Below are positions 1 to 5,761 of a stretch of DNA of 5,761 nt, piece by piece. The notes beneath the pieces are model-generated. The model saw nothing but the letters and a program-made list of their open reading frames with translations. It ran no database searches and was not told the DNA's origin. This DNA comes from Sphingopyxis sp. (GTDB lineage Bacteria; Pseudomonadota; Alphaproteobacteria; Sphingomonadales; Sphingomonadaceae). Within the stretch, counting starts at the first letter, position 1; each line of letters begins with the position of its first letter. The stretch spans positions 1-5,761 of the forward strand of contig JAAUPH010000175.1 in NCBI GenBank assembly GCA_012035435.1, given 5' to 3'. The position numbers and the translations under genes are program-made.

Positions 1-108
1 TTATGGGCGCCATCCAGGTTTTCCTCCGTAATGAAAAGCTTCCAAGCGTGGACAGAATTCTTCCCAGACAGCCTTCTCTTCCGGCGATTCTTCCGGCATG
101 AGAGACCG

Positions 109-342
109 ATTCGTGAGAAAGTGCTAACCCAAACCTACGACAGCGGCAAAGAGTTCGTGCATCACCAATGACTCGCTGAGATTCTTGAAGCCAACGCCTC
201 CTTCGCCCATCCGGATCATTTCTGGGAACGAGGATTCAACGAGAATACCAACGGCCTGCTCAGGCAGTACTTCCCCAAGGGCACCGACCTCAGCCTCCAT
301 GCACCCGAAGACCTCGAGGCCGTCGCCGCCGCGCTCAATGAT
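109..342 (+). pseudogene. IS30-family transposase, C-terminal remnant
   Basis: Reading frame 1 gives the C-terminal part of an IS30-family DDE transposase catalytic core. Recognisable pieces are TYDSGKEF (second catalytic Asp, codon 139-141) and, 34 codons later, RGFNENTNGLLRQYFPKGTD, which holds the catalytic Glu (codon 241-243). The D-to-E gap of 33 residues is the usual IS30 spacing. The copy is dead: a TGA at 169-171 interrupts the frame between the Asp and the Glu. The DNA-binding N-terminus and first Asp are absent, and upstream of about 109 the frame no longer resembles the family. The C-terminal tail is replaced at about 331-342 by HutG sequence, and no terminal inverted repeat is visible. 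The family call is firm; both boundaries are approximate. Confidence 0.8.
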
Positions 343-559
343 CCGTATCCGGGCGGCCATATCACCGAATGCTATGCCCGGCCCCCAACGCGGCGTCCAT
401 GCGATTCAGGTGGAATTTGATCGTGCGCTCTATCTGGATGCGACAATGCAGCCCGAAGCGGATCGCGCCCTTGCGCTTGGCGAATGGTTGTTAGCCGCAG
501 CCTGCCGCGCCTTGAATTCGCTGATTGTGGGAAACGACTGGCCACAGGCAGCTGAATAA
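334..559 (+). pseudogene. hutG: N-formylglutamate amidohydrolase, C-terminal fragment with +1 frameshift
   Basis: This is the last ~75 residues of an N-formylglutamate amidohydrolase (N-formylglutamate to glutamate plus formate, late histidine degradation). The family is normally about 260-300 residues. Frame 1 carries the motif LNDPYPGGHITECYARP, then the homology moves to frame 2 with QRGVHAIQVEFDRALYLD and runs to TAA at 557-559. The shift falls in a run of five C (382-386), where four would keep the frame. The 5' three quarters of the gene are missing and are replaced by transposase sequence, so no start exists. The run-length change may be a sequencing error, but the truncation is not explained by that. 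The family assignment rests on recognised motifs. Confidence 0.72.
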
Positions 560-591
560 AAAGCCACCTCGTGCGCACGGCACGAGGTGGC
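558..591 (-). terminator. Intrinsic terminator, minus strand
   Basis: A perfect 12-bp stem (563-574 pairing with 580-591) with a 5-nt loop is followed, on the minus strand, by five T (complement of 558-562). Orientation is set by the T tract: none follows on the plus side. It lies about 130 nt downstream of the tRNA-Pro 3' end on the same strand, so it probably ends the tRNA (and perhaps radC-like) transcript. It also sits 3 nt past the hutG stop, where the hairpin alone could act weakly in the other direction. Confidence 0.75.
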
Positions 592-719
592 CAGGGTCCA
601 GGGAGGACGCATTGCAGCATTAAGAGCCGCAACACTCACCGATACAGCAAGGGGGGAGCCGCAGCGGTGTAATCACAATGTAGGGTTAAGGAACGCCCGT
701 TGCAAGCCGCAGAAGAAAT

Positions 720-796
720 TGGTCGGGGAGAGAGGATTCGAACCTCCGGCCCCTGCCTCCCGAAGACAGTGCTCTACCAGGCTGAGCTACTCCCCG
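720..796 (-). tRNA. tRNA-Pro(CGG)
   Basis: The reverse complement folds into a complete 77-nt cloverleaf with encoded CCA. It has acceptor arms CGGGGAG/CTCCCCG, D-stem GCTC/GAGC, anticodon stem CTGTC/GGCAG around loop TTCGGGA, and T-arm GGAGG-TTCGAAT-CCTCT. The anticodon CGG (complement of 760-762) reads the proline codon CCG. The C1:G72 pair and A73 are known identity elements of bacterial tRNA-Pro and support the call. It lies downstream of the radC-like gene on the same strand. A possible own promoter is TTGAAC (complement of 861-866) with a weak TAGGGG 17 nt on. Nothing else is seen in 592-719 or 797-901. Confidence 0.95.
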
Positions 797-901
797 ACCG
801 TGCCGCGTGACCGAGGTCGCCGCGAAGGCAGGAGCGCCCCCTAGCGACACCTGCCCCGATGTTCAAGCACCAACTTGGCTTTTCTGCACGCCTCGGCGCG
901 A

Positions 902-1315
902 TCACAAAAGGCCGGCTTGCCGAAAGCTGAAATGCCCGGCACAGGTCAGGATCAAATGGTCGCTGACCATCATCCCGCAAAGCTCGCATAGCGCCACGAT
1001 CCGACGTGTCAGCGTCAGGTCGTCGGGACTCGGTCTCAGTTCGCCCGACGGATGGTTATGGGCAACCAGCAACTGCGCATTGTATCCGCTGCTGATCACC
1101 GCGCGGACCATCACGGGTGTCACCGCGACACTGCTGCGGCCGCGCCCGCCATTTTCGCAGGCGCTGAGCAGTCGGCCTTCTGGATCGAAGCAGAAAAATG
1201 TTAGCCACTCGCCCGCGTCGCTGAAATGCGGGCGCACCAGCGCGGAGATCAGCTCGCTTTCATTGCCGCGTGCAACGAAAGCGGGATCGCGATAGACAAG
1301 ACTGGCTGTGGCCAC
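902..1315 (-). CDS. RadC-like JAMM/MPN domain protein, short form
   Basis: A 137-residue protein made of little more than a RadC-type JAMM (MPN+) domain. The metal site is visible as HNHPSG at residues 86-91 followed by PSPDD (95-99), giving His86, His88, Ser96 and Asp99; Glu54 is the likely acidic partner. The C-terminal DHLILTCAGHFSFRQAGLL matches the usual RadC ending. Classic RadC is about 220 residues with an N-terminal helix-hairpin-helix region, which is absent here. RadC proteins are annotated as DNA repair factors, but their function is poorly settled; related MPN domains are metallo-isopeptidases. The start chosen is GTG at 1313-1315, the only plausible in-frame start before the frame runs into thyA on the other strand. 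Its ribosome binding site is poor, so the N-terminus is uncertain. It is divergent from thyA and precedes tRNA-Pro. Confidence 0.78.
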   Translation of the reverse strand: MATASLVYRDPAFVARGNESELISALVRPHFSDAGEWLTFFCFDPEGRLLSACENGGRGRSSVAVTPVMVRAVISSGYNAQLLVAHNHPSGELRPSPDDLTLTRRIVALCELCGMMVSDHLILTCAGHFSFRQAGLL

Positions 1316-1359
1316 ACGCTCTATTCGCTTGCCTGGGCATCGCAGAGAAGCGACGACTG

Positions 1360-1383
1360 ATCCAGATTTGATCGAATGTGGAT
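1360..1383. promoter_or_regulatory. 24-bp imperfect palindrome between radC-like gene and thyA
   Basis: The sequence is symmetric at 20 of 24 positions around a central GATC: ATCCA-n-ATT-n-GATC-n-AAT-n-TGGAT, centred between 1371 and 1372. It lies in the 134-bp divergent region (1316-1449), where operators are common. A TTGATC at 1368-1373 inside it could serve as a weak -35 element toward thyA. No repressor is recognised nearby, so an operator role is inference from symmetry and place only. Confidence 0.35.
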
Positions 1384-1449
1384 ACTTGCAGCATAGCCGT
1401 CCGAACCCTAGGCCGATGACGTCGCACCCCAACCCGAGTCTGATCGTCC

Positions 1450-2375
1450 ATGCCGCATTATGAAACACAATATCTGGACCTGATGCGGCGTATCTGGGCA
1501 GAAGGTGACGAGCGTGTGGATCGCACCGGCGTTGGCACCCGCTCGCTGTTCGGTGAGACCATGCGCTTTTCGCTTGCTGATAACGCCGTTCCGCTGCTGA
1601 CGACGAAGCGGGTGTTCTGGAAAACGGCGGTGCGGGAGCTGCTGTGGTTTTTGACTGGCGACACCAATATCCGCCCATTGTTGGCGCAGGGCGTACGCAT
1701 CTGGACTGAGTGGCCGCTCGCGCAATATCGCGCAGCAAGCGGTAACGACATCAGCGCTACAGATTTCGAACAGCGCATCATCGACGATGCCGATTTCGCC
1801 GCCGCATGGGGCGATCTTGGCCCCGTCTACGGCCACCAATGGGTCAATTGGCCCGCTATGAGGCGGCCGAGGGCGGCCTGTTCCGCCGCGCCGCAGCCGG
1901 TCACAACCAGATTGCGGCGCTGGTCGTGTCGCTGCGCAACAATCCGGCGTCGCGGCGGCATATCTTCACCGGCTGGAATGTCGCCGATCTCGACGCGATG
2001 GCGCTGCCACCATGCCATATGACTTATCAATTCCATGTCCGCAGCGATGGCGGACTATCGTGCCTGCTGTTTCAGCGCAGCTGTGATTTGGGATTGGGGT
2101 TTGCCTTCAATATTTTCGAAGCGGCGCTGCTCACCCGCATGCTGGCCGACCAATGCGGTCTGACGGCGCGCGAGGTCGTGTGGACGGGCGGCGACGTTCA
2201 TCTCTACCTGAACCACGCGGCGCTGGTCGAAGCACAGCTTGACCGGACGCCACAGGGCGCGCCGACGCTGCATATTCTGCGCCGCGCAGAGGATGTTTTC
2301 AGCTATCGTTTCGAGGATTTTGAGGTGCGGGACTATTCCCCGCAAGCCCATATCGCGGCGCCAGTTGCAGTATAG
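1450..2375 (+). pseudogene. thyA: Thymidylate synthase, single-base frameshift
   Basis: ThyA makes dTMP from dUMP using 5,10-methylenetetrahydrofolate. Frame 1 from ATG 1450 gives the N-terminal half, with dUMP-phosphate motif DRTGVGTRS (residues 24-32), [11 protein letters not shown] and [12 protein letters not shown]. Homology then moves to frame 3 with [13 protein letters not shown] and continues through the active-site segment [11 protein letters not shown] (Cys codon 2013-2015), [13 protein letters not shown] and HLYLNH to TAG 2373-2375. One C is missing in the run at 1852-1854 (CCCC expected). Restoring it gives a 308-residue protein, including the insert around residues 92-122 typical of alphaproteobacterial forms. 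As written, translation would stop at 2022 after about 135 correct residues. Everything else is intact, so a sequencing or assembly error is as likely as real decay. The ribosome binding site is weak. No folA follows. Confidence 0.9.
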
Positions 2376-2383
2376 GCCACAGA

Positions 2384-2410
2384 TTGCTTTTCCCTGCTGT
2401 TTGAAATAAT
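2384..2410 (+). promoter_or_regulatory. bkdA1p: Candidate promoter of the BCKDH operon
   Basis: In the 99-bp gap between thyA and the operon, TTGCTT (2384-2389) and AATAAT (2405-2410) are spaced 15 bp, with AATAAT matching the -10 consensus at five of six bases. The -35 match and the spacing are poor. It is the most AT-rich piece of the gap. An initiation point near 2417 would leave a leader of about 58 nt. Confidence 0.25.
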
Positions 2411-2463
2411 GTGTCGCGTCATTGAAACATAACTAAACCGCTTGGGAAGTGCCCGCGGTGACC

Positions 2464-2468
2464 GAGGA
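2464..2468 (+). promoter_or_regulatory. Ribosome binding site fixing the E1-alpha start
   Basis: GAGGA lies 6 nt before ATG 2475. It selects that ATG over the in-frame TTG at 2442, which has no comparable site and would only add 11 residues unlike the family. Confidence 0.65.
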
Positions 2469-2474
2469 TGCCGA

Positions 2475-3770
2475 ATGCCTGACCCGCGCCCAAGTCTTGC
2501 GACCAACTTGCCGCCGCTGTCGCTCCATGTGCCCGAACCGCGTTTTCGGCCCGGCGATACCGCCGATTTCTCTGACATTGCGGTCCCCGGTGTCGATGCC
2601 ATCGCGCGGCCGAGCGAGGGCGCGAAGCCCGATACGCTGCGCGATCTCGCCTATGGTCTGGTCCGGGTGCTTGATTTTGACGGGACTGCGGGCGGCTCGT
2701 GGAACCCCGGCCTGTCGACCGAGCGCAAGCTCGCGATGCTCCGCACGATGGTGCTCGTCCGCGCCTTCGACGACCGCATGTTCCGCGCGCAGCGGCAGGG
2801 CAAGACAAGCTTCTATATGAAATCGACGGGCGAAGAGGCAACGTCGGTCGCCACCGCCATGGCGCTCAATCGCGGCGACATGTGTTTCCCCAGCTATCGT
2901 CAGCAGGGCATCCTGATCGCGCGTGATTATCCCTTGGTCGCCATGATGAACCAGATTTATTCGAACCGCGGCGACCATCTGATGGGCCGTCAGCTGCCGA
3001 TCATGTACAGCGCGCCCGACCATGGTTTTTTCAGCATTTCAGGCAATCTGGCGACGCAATATCCGCAAGCTGTCGGCTGGGCGATGGCGTCCGCAGCCAA
3101 GGGCGATACGCGGATCGCGGCAACGTGGTGCGGCGAAGGTTCGACGGCCGAGGGCGACTTCCACAGCGCGCTGACCTTTGCCGCAGTTTACAACGCTCCG
3201 GTCATTTTCAACGTCGTCAACAACCAGTGGGCGATCTCGTCCTTCTCGGGCTTTGCGGGCGGCGAGCGGACGACCTTTGCCGCGCGCGCGGTCGGCTATG
3301 GCGTCGCGGGCCTCCGCGTCGATGGCAATGATCCGCTAGCGGTTTACGCCGCAATGGAGTGGGCGGCCAACCGCGCGCGGACCAATCATGGCCCCACGCT
3401 GATCGAATATTTCACCTATCGGGCGGAGGGGCATTCGACCTCCGACGACCCCAGCGCTTATCGCGCGGCTCAGGAATATGCGGCCTGGCCGCTGGGCGAT
3501 CCCGTGCTGCGGCTGCGCGACCATCTGATAGCCGAGGGGGCGTGGGACCAGGCGCGCCACGATGCGCAGGCCGCCGAGCTTGAAGCCATGGTCAAGGCCG
3601 CGCAGAAGGAGGCCGAAAAGAACGGGGTTTTGGGCCACGGCATGCATCAGCCGTTTGAAACCATGTTTCAGGACGTGTTCGAAGACATGCCCTGGCACCT
3701 CCAGGAACAGTGCGAACAAATGCTTGCTGAGCAACGCGCCAAATTCGGCCCCGGTTGGAAGCCGCGCTGA
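2475..3770 (+). CDS. bkdA1: Branched-chain 2-oxoacid dehydrogenase E1 component, alpha subunit
   Basis: This is the 431-residue alpha subunit of the thiamine-diphosphate-dependent E1 of BCKDH. E1 decarboxylates 2-oxo acids from valine, leucine and isoleucine and passes the acyl group to lipoyl-E2, in the cytoplasm. An N-terminal arm (residues 1-80, with LDFDGTAGGSWNPGLS) typical of bacterial BCKDH rather than pyruvate E1 precedes the catalytic fold. The ThDP/Mg motif runs from GEG (220-222) to NN (249-250), ending in NVVNNQWAIS. The GHSTSDDPSAYR loop (319-330) matches the conserved loop that is phosphorylated in mammalian BCKDH. Residues 360-385 are a charged helix. The start is ATG 2475. The stop overlaps the E1-beta start by one base, so the two subunits are translationally coupled. 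Substrate could be broader than branched-chain acids, but the arm favours this call. Confidence 0.92.
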   Translation: MPDPRPSLATNLPPLSLHVPEPRFRPGDTADFSDIAVPGVDAIARPSEGAKPDTLRDLAYGLVRVLDFDGTAGGSWNPGLSTERKLAMLRTMVLVRAFDDRMFRAQRQGKTSFYMKSTGEEATSVATAMALNRGDMCFPSYRQQGILIARDYPLVAMMNQIYSNRGDHLMGRQLPIMYSAPDHGFFSISGNLATQYPQAVGWAMASAAKGDTRIAATWCGEGSTAEGDFHSALTFAAVYNAPVIFNVVNNQWAISSFSGFAGGERTTFAARAVGYGVAGLRVDGNDPLAVYAAMEWAANRARTNHGPTLIEYFTYRAEGHSTSDDPSAYRAAQEYAAWPLGDPVLRLRDHLIAEGAWDQARHDAQAAELEAMVKAAQKEAEKNGVLGHGMHQPFETMFQDVFEDMPWHLQEQCEQMLAEQRAKFGPGWKPR

Positions 3771-4789
3771 TGACCACCGAAACCATGAATATGATCGAGG
3801 CGATCAACAGCGCGATGGACGTGATGCTGGAGCGCGACCCTAGCGTGGTCGTGCTGGGTGAGGACATCGGCTATTTTGGCGGCGTGTTCCGGGCGACCGC
3901 GGGCTTGCAGAAAAAATATGGCAAGACGCGGGTGTTCGACACGCCGATCAACGAATGCGGCATCATTGGCGTGGCCGTCGGAATGGGTGCCTATGGCCTG
4001 CGTCCAGTGCCGGAGATTCAATTCGCGGACTATATCTATCCGGGCCTTGACCAGCTCGTCAGCGAAGCCGCGCGGCTGCGCTATCGCTCGGCGGGCGATT
4101 TCATCGCGCCGATGACGGTGCGCTCGCCCTTTGGCGGTGGCATTTTTGGCGGCCAGACGCACAGCCAGTCGCCCGAAAGCATGTTCACCCATGTGTGCGG
4201 TCTGAAAACGGTGATTCCGTCCACTCCCTATGATGCCAAGGGGCTGCTGATTGCCGCGATCGAGGATAATGATCCCGTCATCTTCTTTGAGCCCAAGCGC
4301 ATCTACAATGGCCCCTTCAGCGGCTATTATGACCGCCCGGTCGAGCCTTGGGCCAAACATGCCGCCAGCGCGGTGCCCGAGGGATATTATCGGATCGAGC
4401 TAGGCAAGGCAGCCGTGGTGCGTGAGGGCGGTGCGGTCACTATCTTGACCTATGGCACCATGGTGCATGTCGCGATGACCGTGGTCGAAGAACAGGGCGT
4501 CGACGCCGAAGTCATTGATCTGCGCTCGTTAATGCCCATCGACATCGACACGATCAAGGCGTCGGTGGAAAAAACCGGGCGCTGCGTGATCATCCATGAG
4601 GCAACGCGCACGTCTGGCTTTGGCGCCGAACTTGCCGCACTGGTGCAGGAACGCTGCTTCTATCATCTTGAGGCTCCGGTGGAGCGGGTAACAGGGTTTG
4701 ACACGCCCTATCCGCACAGCCTGGAATGGGCCTATTTTCCCGGCCCGGTGCGGATAGCGACTGCGCTCAACAAAATCTTGAAGGACTGA
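3770..4789 (+). CDS. bkdA2: Branched-chain 2-oxoacid dehydrogenase E1 component, beta subunit
   Basis: A 339-residue beta subunit that completes the alpha2-beta2 E1 heterotetramer. The N-terminal half has VVVLGEDIGYFGGVFRAT (27-44), FDTPINECGIIG (56-67, with Glu62 in the position that activates ThDP) and FGGQTHSQSPESMF (126-139, with active-site His131). The C-terminal transketolase domain has VTILTYGTMVH, DAEVIDLRSLMPID and VERVTGFDTPYPHSLEW. Length is normal for the family. ATG 3770 is chosen because it forms the TGATG coupling with bkdA1 and begins MTTETMNMIEAIN; the upstream in-frame TTG 3755 lies inside bkdA1. The gene is intact, and 4 nt separate it from the next gene, whose AAGGA ribosome site (4781-4785) lies inside its last codons. 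Confidence 0.93.
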   Translation: MTTETMNMIEAINSAMDVMLERDPSVVVLGEDIGYFGGVFRATAGLQKKYGKTRVFDTPINECGIIGVAVGMGAYGLRPVPEIQFADYIYPGLDQLVSEAARLRYRSAGDFIAPMTVRSPFGGGIFGGQTHSQSPESMFTHVCGLKTVIPSTPYDAKGLLIAAIEDNDPVIFFEPKRIYNGPFSGYYDRPVEPWAKHAASAVPEGYYRIELGKAAVVREGGAVTILTYGTMVHVAMTVVEEQGVDAEVIDLRSLMPIDIDTIKASVEKTGRCVIIHEATRTSGFGAELAALVQERCFYHLEAPVERVTGFDTPYPHSLEWAYFPGPVRIATALNKILKD

Positions 4790-4793
4790 CGTC

Positions 4794-5036
4794 ATGGCCC
4801 GCTTTTCATTTCGTTTGCCCGACATAGGCGAAGGCATTGCCGAGGCTGAGATCGTCGCGTGGCATGTCAAGGTGGGGGACCGAATCGAAGAAGATTCGCA
4901 GCTTGCCGACATGATGACCGACAAGGCAACGGTGGAGATGGAATCGCCAGTGACGGGCGTAGTCGTCGAGCTGGCGGGCGAGGTTGGCGACATGGTCGCA
5001 ATTGGATCGACGCTAGCGGTGATTGAGACGGACGCG
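4794..5036 (+). pseudogene. bkdB: BCKDH E2 (dihydrolipoyl acyltransferase), lipoyl domain only
   Basis: Residues 1-80 of the fused frame form a complete biotinyl/lipoyl domain: FRLPDIGEGIAEAEIVAWHV at the start, MMTDKATVEMESP with the lipoylated Lys44 (codon 4923-4925), and GSTLAVIETD at the end. This DKATVE form is typical of BCKDH E2, and the position after bkdA1-bkdA2 agrees. In the intact complex this swinging arm takes the acyl group from E1 and hands it to the E2 active site. Here homology stops at about 5033, before any linker or core domain. The domain alone could fold and be lipoylated but could not make acyl-CoA. Confidence 0.88.
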
Positions 5037-5761
5037 GAAAAGGCAGAGGGCTGTATCATCGCCTGTGGCACCCGCATGTTCGACACGCCGGAAACCGACA
5101 AGGAGCGCAGGCCCAAATCGGAACTGCGGCGCATGTATCGCGGGCAGCGGCGCGTGATCAGAAGGCGGCGGCAACGCATGAATGCGGTGCGCAAGCTGCT
5201 CCACGAGGCGCTTGGCCCGGGCTGGAGCGGCTACGATAAACACGATCCCGCGCGCTACGAGCGCGAATCGAAGGCATTTTGCGCCAAGCTTGCCGAGCAT
5301 GGCTACCTGACCCAGAACTGGCCGAAGGAATACGGCGGCACCGGGTGGACCAGCACGCAGAAGTACATCTTCGGTGAGGAATGCGCCGCCGCCGACACGC
5401 CGATGACCCTGCCGTTCGGCCTCGCGATGGTCGGCCCCGTCATCTACACGTTCGGCAATGACGAACAGAAGAAGACGTTCCTGCCGAAAATTCTTTCAGG
5501 CGAACACTGGTGGTGCCAGGGCTATTCCGAGCCGGGCTCGGGCTCGGACCTTGCGTCGTTGAAGACGACGGCTGTGCGCGAAGGCGACCACTATATCGTC
5601 AACGGCCAGAAGACCTGGACGACGCTCGCCCAATACGCCGACTGGATATTCTGTCTCGTGCGCACCGACGCGAAGGCAAAGCAGCAGGAAGGCATCTCAT
5701 TCCTGCTCATCGACATGAAGACGCCGGGCGTGACCGTTCGGCCCATCATCACGATGGACGG
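4794..5761 (+). CDS. Chimeric open frame: E2 lipoyl domain / Cas9 fragment / acyl-CoA dehydrogenase (runs off window)
   Basis: One uninterrupted frame of 322 codons starts at ATG 4794 behind AAGGA (4781-4785, 8-nt spacing) and leaves the window without a stop. Residues 1-80 are a lipoyl domain, about 82-139 resemble the Cas9 bridge-helix region, and about 140-322 are an acyl-CoA dehydrogenase. A normal BCKDH E2 would have a Pro/Ala-rich linker, an E1/E3-binding domain and a C-terminal acyltransferase domain; none appears. Gene position and start fit the third gene of the bkd operon, so the 5' end is probably the true bkdB start. No family is known to me with this architecture. A chimera from misassembly or short-homology recombination is the leading explanation, and a functional fusion is unlikely because all three parts are truncated. 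The three parts are described separately below. Confidence 0.85.
   Translation, partial: MARFSFRLPDIGEGIAEAEIVAWHVKVGDRIEEDSQLADMMTDKATVEMESPVTGVVVELAGEVGDMVAIGSTLAVIETDAEKAEGCIIACGTRMFDTPETDKERRPKSELRRMYRGQRRVIRRRRQRMNAVRKLLHEALGPGWSGYDKHDPARYERESKAFCAKLAEHGYLTQNWPKEYGGTGWTSTQKYIFGEECAAADTPMTLPFGLAMVGPVIYTFGNDEQKKTFLPKILSGEHWWCQGYSEPGSGSDLASLKTTAVREGDHYIVNGQKTWTTLAQYADWIFCLVRTDAKAKQQEGISFLLIDMKTPGVTVRPIITMD
5037..5210 (+). pseudogene. cas9: Cas9-like fragment: end of RuvC-I plus arginine-rich bridge helix
   Basis: Residues 82-139 of the fused frame read GCIIACGTRMFDTPETDK and then an arginine-rich helix, GQRRVIRRRRQRMNAVRKLL. Twelve of the 24 residues from 105 to 128 are Arg. The order 'G-x-R-x-F, acidic turn, Arg-rich helix, hydrophobic R-x-L-L' is that of type II Cas9 just after the first RuvC strand; compare GVRVFERAEVPKTG of the Neisseria enzyme and the bridge helix of the Streptococcus enzyme. 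In Cas9 this helix contacts the guide RNA backbone. The RuvC-I strand with the catalytic Asp should precede it, but lipoyl-domain sequence stands there; REC, HNH and the rest are also absent. Other frames and the minus strand give nothing better. Identification is by pattern recognition only; the fragment cannot be a nuclease. Confidence 0.68.
5211..5761 (+). CDS. Acyl-CoA dehydrogenase, N-terminal and middle domains (5' and 3' incomplete)
   Basis: From about residue 140 the frame is an acyl-CoA dehydrogenase, the FAD flavoenzyme that introduces the 2,3-double bond into acyl-CoA in beta-oxidation or amino-acid catabolism. Seen are the helical N-terminal domain (YERESKAFCAKLAEHGYL, NWPKEYGGTGW), the family signature GYSEPGSGSDLASLKT (243-258) with flavin and substrate contacts, and NGQKTWTTLAQYADWIFCLVR (270-290) of the beta-barrel domain. 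The window ends near TMDGG, before the catalytic Glu region. The usual first 15-20 residues are missing, replaced by Cas9-like sequence. ATG 5178 (residue 129) is an alternative start but lies in the Arg-rich helix with a poorly spaced AAGG, so I do not favour it. Acyl-CoA dehydrogenases often accompany bkd genes, but here the truncation makes linkage doubtful. The substrate cannot be told. Confidence 0.87.

Follow-up and report, generated by a model that had tools for sequence, protein, structure and literature searches.

An open frame of lipoyl, Cas9 and acyl-CoA dehydrogenase sequence at the end of a probably chimeric contig

The window, by which we mean the whole 5,761-base stretch of DNA that was analysed, ends in a frame that stays open for 322 codons, from an ATG at position 4794 to the window end (frame 4794–5759), and that reads in order through a lipoyl domain, an N-terminal piece of Cas9 and an acyl-CoA dehydrogenase (ACAD). 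We consider it almost certain that the window is a chimeric contig and that 4794–5761 is not a gene but a spliced contig end. As judged from alignments, four sources appear to meet within these 968 bases via three joins (J1–J3, table 1). The first-pass annotation had correctly described 322 stop-free codons starting at an ATG, and its reading of the frame as a chimera, made by misassembly or short-homology recombination, is supported here: J1 and J3 lie on shared peptides, the families are separate in the relatives examined, and the source also changes abruptly at the opposite end of the window.

Table 1. Features of the window, with the joins (J0–J3) between sources
Feature	Position	Strand	Basis
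IS30-type transposase fragment with in-frame stop	1..338	+	blastn to plasmids; similarity ends at 338
J0, transposase to amidohydrolase	337..338	+	no more than 2 bases common to both matches
N-formylglutamate-amidohydrolase-like gene, C-terminal end, two frames	337..559	+	tblastx L095/L096; PF05013 E 0.021
tRNA-Pro (CGG)	720..796	-	ARAGORN
RadC-like JAB domain	911..1252	-	PF04002 E 3.6e-18, residues 163–276 of ORF 902–1738 (minus)
Thymidylate synthase, split over two frames	1450..2375	+	PF00303 positions 2–104 in one frame, 105–266 in another
2-Oxoacid dehydrogenase E1 alpha (bkdA1-like)	2442..3770	+	PF00676 E 8.3e-98; PF12573 E 1.6e-15
2-Oxoacid dehydrogenase E1 beta (bkdA2-like)	3755..4789	+	PF02779 E 1.4e-39; PF02780 E 1.9e-37
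Lipoyl domain, start of E2 gene	4794..5033	+	PF00364; 91% identical to L042 over residues 1–82
J1, from E2 into Cas9, on AVIETD followed by x and E	5016..5039	+	AVIETD in E2 and Cas9 proteins
Cas9 N-terminal piece with bridge helix, lacking RuvC-I Asp, REC and HNH	5034..5210	+	TIGR01865; 19 genome loci; 120 listed Cas9 proteins
J2, Cas9 to ACAD 1, about LLHEA	5196..5210	+	inferred from alignment ends/starts
ACAD 1, scrap from the N-terminus of a different acyl-CoA dehydrogenase	5211..5318	+	ACADs in 5 plasmid records, 38–42% identical
J3, ACAD 1 to ACAD 2, at WPKEYGG	5319..5339	+	identity jump vs P0001 at residue 176
ACAD 2, pimeloyl-CoA-dehydrogenase-large-subunit-like, cut by window end	5319..5761	+	TIGR03204; PF02771, PF02770

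Pieces and joins of the open frame

A Pfam search with the frame from 4794 gave 11 matches at E <= 1, including the lipoyl domain PF00364 at residues 6–77 (E 6.2e-19), the ACAD N-terminal domain PF02771 at residues 130–237 (E 7.6e-20) and the ACAD middle domain PF02770 at residues 241–318 (E 6.9e-22). Lipoyl, Cas9 and ACAD sequence is thus present in one frame, as had been claimed; the count of three families did not hold for the sources, since the ACAD part itself has two (the change falls at residue 176, nucleotide 5319). The translation of the lipoyl part contains TDKA, with the DKA lysine motif that we take to be the mark of an E2 lipoyl domain. None of the 11 Pfam matches is to a catalytic acyltransferase core behind a linker, in agreement with the earlier description of an E2 without its core, and the E2 proteins of relatives (n = 22 read) measure 420–455 aa.

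The best relative changes abruptly at J1 and at J2, and no listed relative spans either join. At J1, similarity to Cas9 starts at residue 75 of the frame, overlapping the E2-like residues 1–82, and the peptide AVIETD lies within this overlap; J1 was therefore placed in 5016–5033, perhaps extending to 5039. AVIETD stands at residue 75, the same residue as in the window, in 3 of the 22 E2 proteins of relatives (L034, L035 and L042), and it is also found in 5 of 120 Cas9 proteins, where it starts at residues 16–21, just before the piece seen in the window. In the Cas9 alignment, P0147 has VGWAVIETDVEKAEGNIIACGTRMFDTP where the window has STLAVIETDAEKAEGCIIACGTRMFDTP. Other six-residue words are shared by E2 and Cas9 proteins more often than AVIETD (15 hits): AVRKLL has 84 hits and AVRRLL 21, over 2640 pairs. 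A number of E2 alignments continue past the join, as far as residues 104–113. At the DNA level, 238 of 249 genomes of the G022 family matched 3700–5761; among the matches listed, none passes 5050, and those that reach E2 end most commonly at 5026–5032. No exact DNA match of at least 14 bases crosses J0, J1 or J2 in the loci compared, so the sharing at J1 is documented in peptides of relatives rather than in DNA of the parents. The same applies to the peptide at J3; the word at J2 is approximate, and none is seen at J0.

The likeness of the second piece to Cas9 is well above chance. On the 70-aa piece, the NCBIfam profile TIGR01865 gave E 2.3e-12 over profile positions 15–67 of 1070, a score under the whole-protein cut-off, as expected for a fragment, and the frame contains the arginine-rich bridge helix within this match; the Pfam bridge-helix family (Cas9-BH) gave E 0.0055, under its curated cut-off. 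The best relative is the Cas9 of a metagenome-assembled genome (MAG), L001, with 83% identity, and residues 87–135 are identical at 48 of 49 positions to 8 of the 120 Cas9 proteins. Cas9 sequences with solved structures matched weakly (best E 0.0075). When genome contigs were scanned with the piece, 279 stretches fitted the pattern, 19 of which encode a relative. A RuvC-I segment precedes the bridge helix in all 120 listed Cas9 proteins under a relaxed motif (a narrower motif caught only 9/19 loci and 111/120 proteins, but on visual inspection the segment is present upstream at each of the 19 loci printed), and the window has the lipoyl domain in this place. Missing with the segment is its Asp, presumably the catalytic one. 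The REC lobe, HNH and the remaining RuvC are absent as well, with ACAD-like sequence taking over at about residue 139, so the earlier statement that the Cas9 part lacks catalytic Asp, REC and HNH is upheld.

We noticed neither a further cas gene nor a repeat array in the window. That the Cas9 piece came from a virus or a plasmid was considered and rejected: viral contigs gave 25 pattern matches and no relative, and plasmids gave no match at E <= 0.01. On the contig of L001, from an Aestuariivirga MAG, the Cas9 gene occupies 576–3656, and a direct-repeat array is visible by eye at 4920–5278. We also observed a 21-base word that is 86% alike between the E1 beta gene (3926–3946) and the Cas9 piece (5070–5090), another chance likeness between families.

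J2 is less sharp than J1 and J3. The best Cas9 alignments (best 35 of 120) stop at residues 136–139, and the N-termini of ACADs from five plasmid records align, at 38–42% identity, from residue 135 (3/5 rows) or 142 (2/5 rows); the query for these five matches also contained WPKEYGGTGW, which raised their score. The shared word would be LLHEA (5196–5210). With positions 5190–5318 alone, Pfam returned nothing at E <= 1. Searches for the parent of ACAD 1 did not find it: 27 of 240 class genomes and 16 of 299 phylum genomes matched, all weakly, plasmids gave the five records mentioned above, and a search by protein words gave one candidate and none at E <= 0.001.

The change at J3 is sharp. Compared with P0001, an intact ACAD of 396 residues, the frame is identical at 146 of 147 positions over residues 176–322, whereas upstream of J3 only 2 of 11 (residues 165–175) and 4 of 26 (residues 139–164) positions agree, although both ACAD domains match Pfam. 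Over 115 ACADs (those of at least 300 aa among 120 listed; five shorter ones were dropped), the median identity is 82% for residues 176–322 and 15% for residues 139–164. The close relatives P0002 and P0005–P0007 have N-termini that resemble that of P0001, unlike that of the window. TIGR03204 matched residues 164–322 (E 3.1e-77, under its whole-protein cut-off), and 5319–5759 alone matched PF02771 positions 50–113 plus PF02770. Among class genomes, 126 of 289 matched 5196–5761; the four strongest DNA matches start at 5318–5319, and among the matches listed a large group starts at 5315–5319, the earliest at 5286. WPKEYGG itself is widespread in the family: of the 120 ACADs listed, 54 contain it. 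The dehydrogenase had been described as merely short of its first residues: its own N-terminal part is indeed absent, but a scrap of another ACAD stands in its place.

The best relative changes at J3 too, though ACADs align weakly over this join (for example, L023 with 53% over residues 130–322). A protein from a 2,013-base contig, the ACAD P0004, differs from P0001 over residues 1–60, after which come WPKQYGGTGW and a body that is almost the same (140/147); it may represent a similar splice in public data, or be a sign that such exchange occurs in nature. A single divergent ACAD behind the Cas9 piece is disfavoured rather than strictly excluded, considering the identity jump at residue 176 on the one hand and the weak alignments over J3 and P0004 on the other.

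Upstream locus and the opposite end of the window

Upstream of J1, the gene order of the window is that of two relatives. Two loci, L095 and L096, keep the order amidohydrolase end, tRNA-Pro, (radC), thyA, E1 alpha, E1 beta and E2 over 545–5032: L095 matches 545–832 and 1456–5032, and L096 matches 545–610, 715–832, 1456–4780 and 4781–5038, each in the same order and on one strand. The radC stretch (833–1455) has no DNA match in L095 or L096, both of which show a gap of similar length. In the class of G001, the genome of L001, 116 of 337 genomes matched 1450–5040, and the best matches listed to 3700–5761 in the family of G022 reach 80–82% DNA identity. Plasmid searches with 2442–5032 matched 244 records; the best named one is from Sphingomonas parapaucimobilis (77.3% over 90%), and the other 11 listed lie at 67–70%. 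We take about 337–5033 to be a real locus, sphingomonad-like by a label that draws on the S. parapaucimobilis plasmid record and on our own reasoning.

Both thyA and the amidohydrolase end are frame-broken in the window and open in L095. The break in thyA is probably a sequencing error, and frame breaks in housekeeping genes would fit a low depth.

At the opposite end, the IS30 region matched 260 plasmid records by blastn; 8 of the 10 listed matches end at 338 and 2 at 285, and 6 of the 10 rows carry the annotation "IS30 family transposase". Two pieces of the first 361 bases gave no Pfam match at E <= 1. The amidohydrolase end has its counterpart at the corresponding position of L095 and L096 (tblastx, 43–53% identity, below the rest of the locus), and its PF05013 match lies under the cut-off. 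The similarity to L095 and L096 starts at 337 and the IS30 matches end at 338, with no shared word of note. J0 is perhaps another false join, and could then be of the same making as the others, or perhaps a real IS remnant. The probability that we assign to a chimera rests on J1 and J3, not on J0.

Origin of the joins

A sequence with the architecture of the frame was sought in several ways. A search with the 322-residue protein scored 7998 proteins, and the 120 listed are all ACADs covering at most 60% of the query. No lipoyl–Cas9 or Cas9–ACAD link was found among the matches listed in this whole-frame search, in the genomes of the G022 family or at the 19 Cas9 loci, and the printed upstream residues of all 19 loci read into the start of Cas9. 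None of the 120 listed ACADs contains a lipoyl or bridge-helix motif; a lipoyl motif scan of the Cas9 proteins gave 2 chance hits in 120, both inside the RuvC-I stretch. Positions 4700–5761 matched 379 plasmid records, but no record spanned over 80% of this stretch, and we found no paper joining Cas9, lipoyl domain, acyl-CoA dehydrogenase and fusion. A natural family of Cas9–lipoyl or Cas9–ACAD fusions was thus rejected, with none in the best 120 of 7998 proteins or at the 19 Cas9 loci. Composition and repeats leave no mark at the joins.

We propose that a sphingomonad-like locus (about 337–5033) was extended into the DNA of other genomes, most likely by the assembler and less likely in the library. 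The extension would have passed from the E2 gene to a Cas9 gene at the codons of AVIETD, from Cas9 to one ACAD at about LLHEA, and from this ACAD to a second one at WPKEYGG, with the assembler going from genome to genome wherever a short word was shared, near a contig end of thin coverage. Such a course would require the DNA of the parents to be alike over a word long enough for the assembler, and the joining would have taken place outside a cell. Shared k-mers can yield chimeric contigs in which several genomes are combined (PMC7299287), and a species is more prone to end up in such a contig when its coverage is low to intermediate (PMC7881036). For checking the contig, mapping reads over 5000–5230 had been suggested earlier; this range is too narrow, as J3 falls outside it.

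Misassembly appears preferable to recombination in a cell, which also leaves joins at short shared words when it is illegitimate and for which an open frame might be counted as a point in favour. A true mosaic, in which the E2 gene was destroyed as scraps of Cas9 and ACAD came to lie after the lipoyl domain by successive short-homology recombination, would need several events with different donors at joins only about 180 and about 120 bases apart. The E2 core would also have to be lost next to E1 frames that are complete, and the 22 E2 proteins read from relatives are 420–455 aa long; neither J1 nor J2 is seen in any listed relative, and we regard this course as very unlikely. Somewhat less credit still is given to the stronger claim that the DNA is real and that repeated short-homology recombination in one sphingomonad-like genome would have built, behind the E1 genes, an in-frame protein of lipoyl domain, Cas9 bridge helix and two-source ACAD; if so, its combination of domains would be one that none of the listed relatives shows. 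The same slight probability is assigned to ligation or amplification chimeras in the library in place of an assembler error. These would give an identical product, and the frame breaks suggest the low depth that would suit them; blunt ligation, however, would not favour in-frame shared words as at J1 and J3, although template switching during amplification could.

Least probable of all is a selected fusion protein, whose lipoyl domain would carry an ACAD as well as a basic bridge helix. In its favour are the 322 open codons and an ATG that follows E1 beta at a distance of 4 bases. However, its dehydrogenase switches source at residue 176, its Cas9 piece lacks the RuvC-I segment and everything behind the bridge helix, and no relative is present in the best 120 of 7998 proteins. 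Moreover, the frame can stay open without selection because J1 and J3 join at words that both neighbours read in the same frame; the open codons are therefore no evidence of selection. If the window is a chimeric contig as we propose, it serves as a warning that joins at peptides common to unrelated families keep a frame open, and that openness of a frame does not prove a fusion. The check that exposed the present case is cheap: one asks whether the similarity passes from one parent to the other at a word that both contain.

Comparison with the parent families and with chimeric contigs

With the E2 of sphingomonad-like branched-chain 2-oxoacid dehydrogenases (L042, L034 and L035), the window shares about the first 80 residues and the position of the lipoyl part behind E1 alpha and E1 beta, whereas the linker and core beyond residue 80 are missing. 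Its likeness to alphaproteobacterial Cas9 (L001, P0145, P0147, P0149 and P0151) extends over residues 75–138 of the frame, and in the four latter proteins 48 of 49 residues are identical over 87–135; in contrast to the window piece, these proteins have the RuvC-I segment, REC, HNH and later parts. Compared with ACADs of the pimeloyl-CoA dehydrogenase large subunit type (TIGR03204), represented by P0001, the frame agrees almost completely from residue 176 on, but the N-terminal part proper to this type is replaced, and the remainder would lie beyond the window. In the work on metagenomes cited above (PMC7299287), chimeric contigs likewise hold sequence of several genomes in one contig. The present case differs from them in that its three joins keep one reading frame, such that a gene finder could report a single protein.
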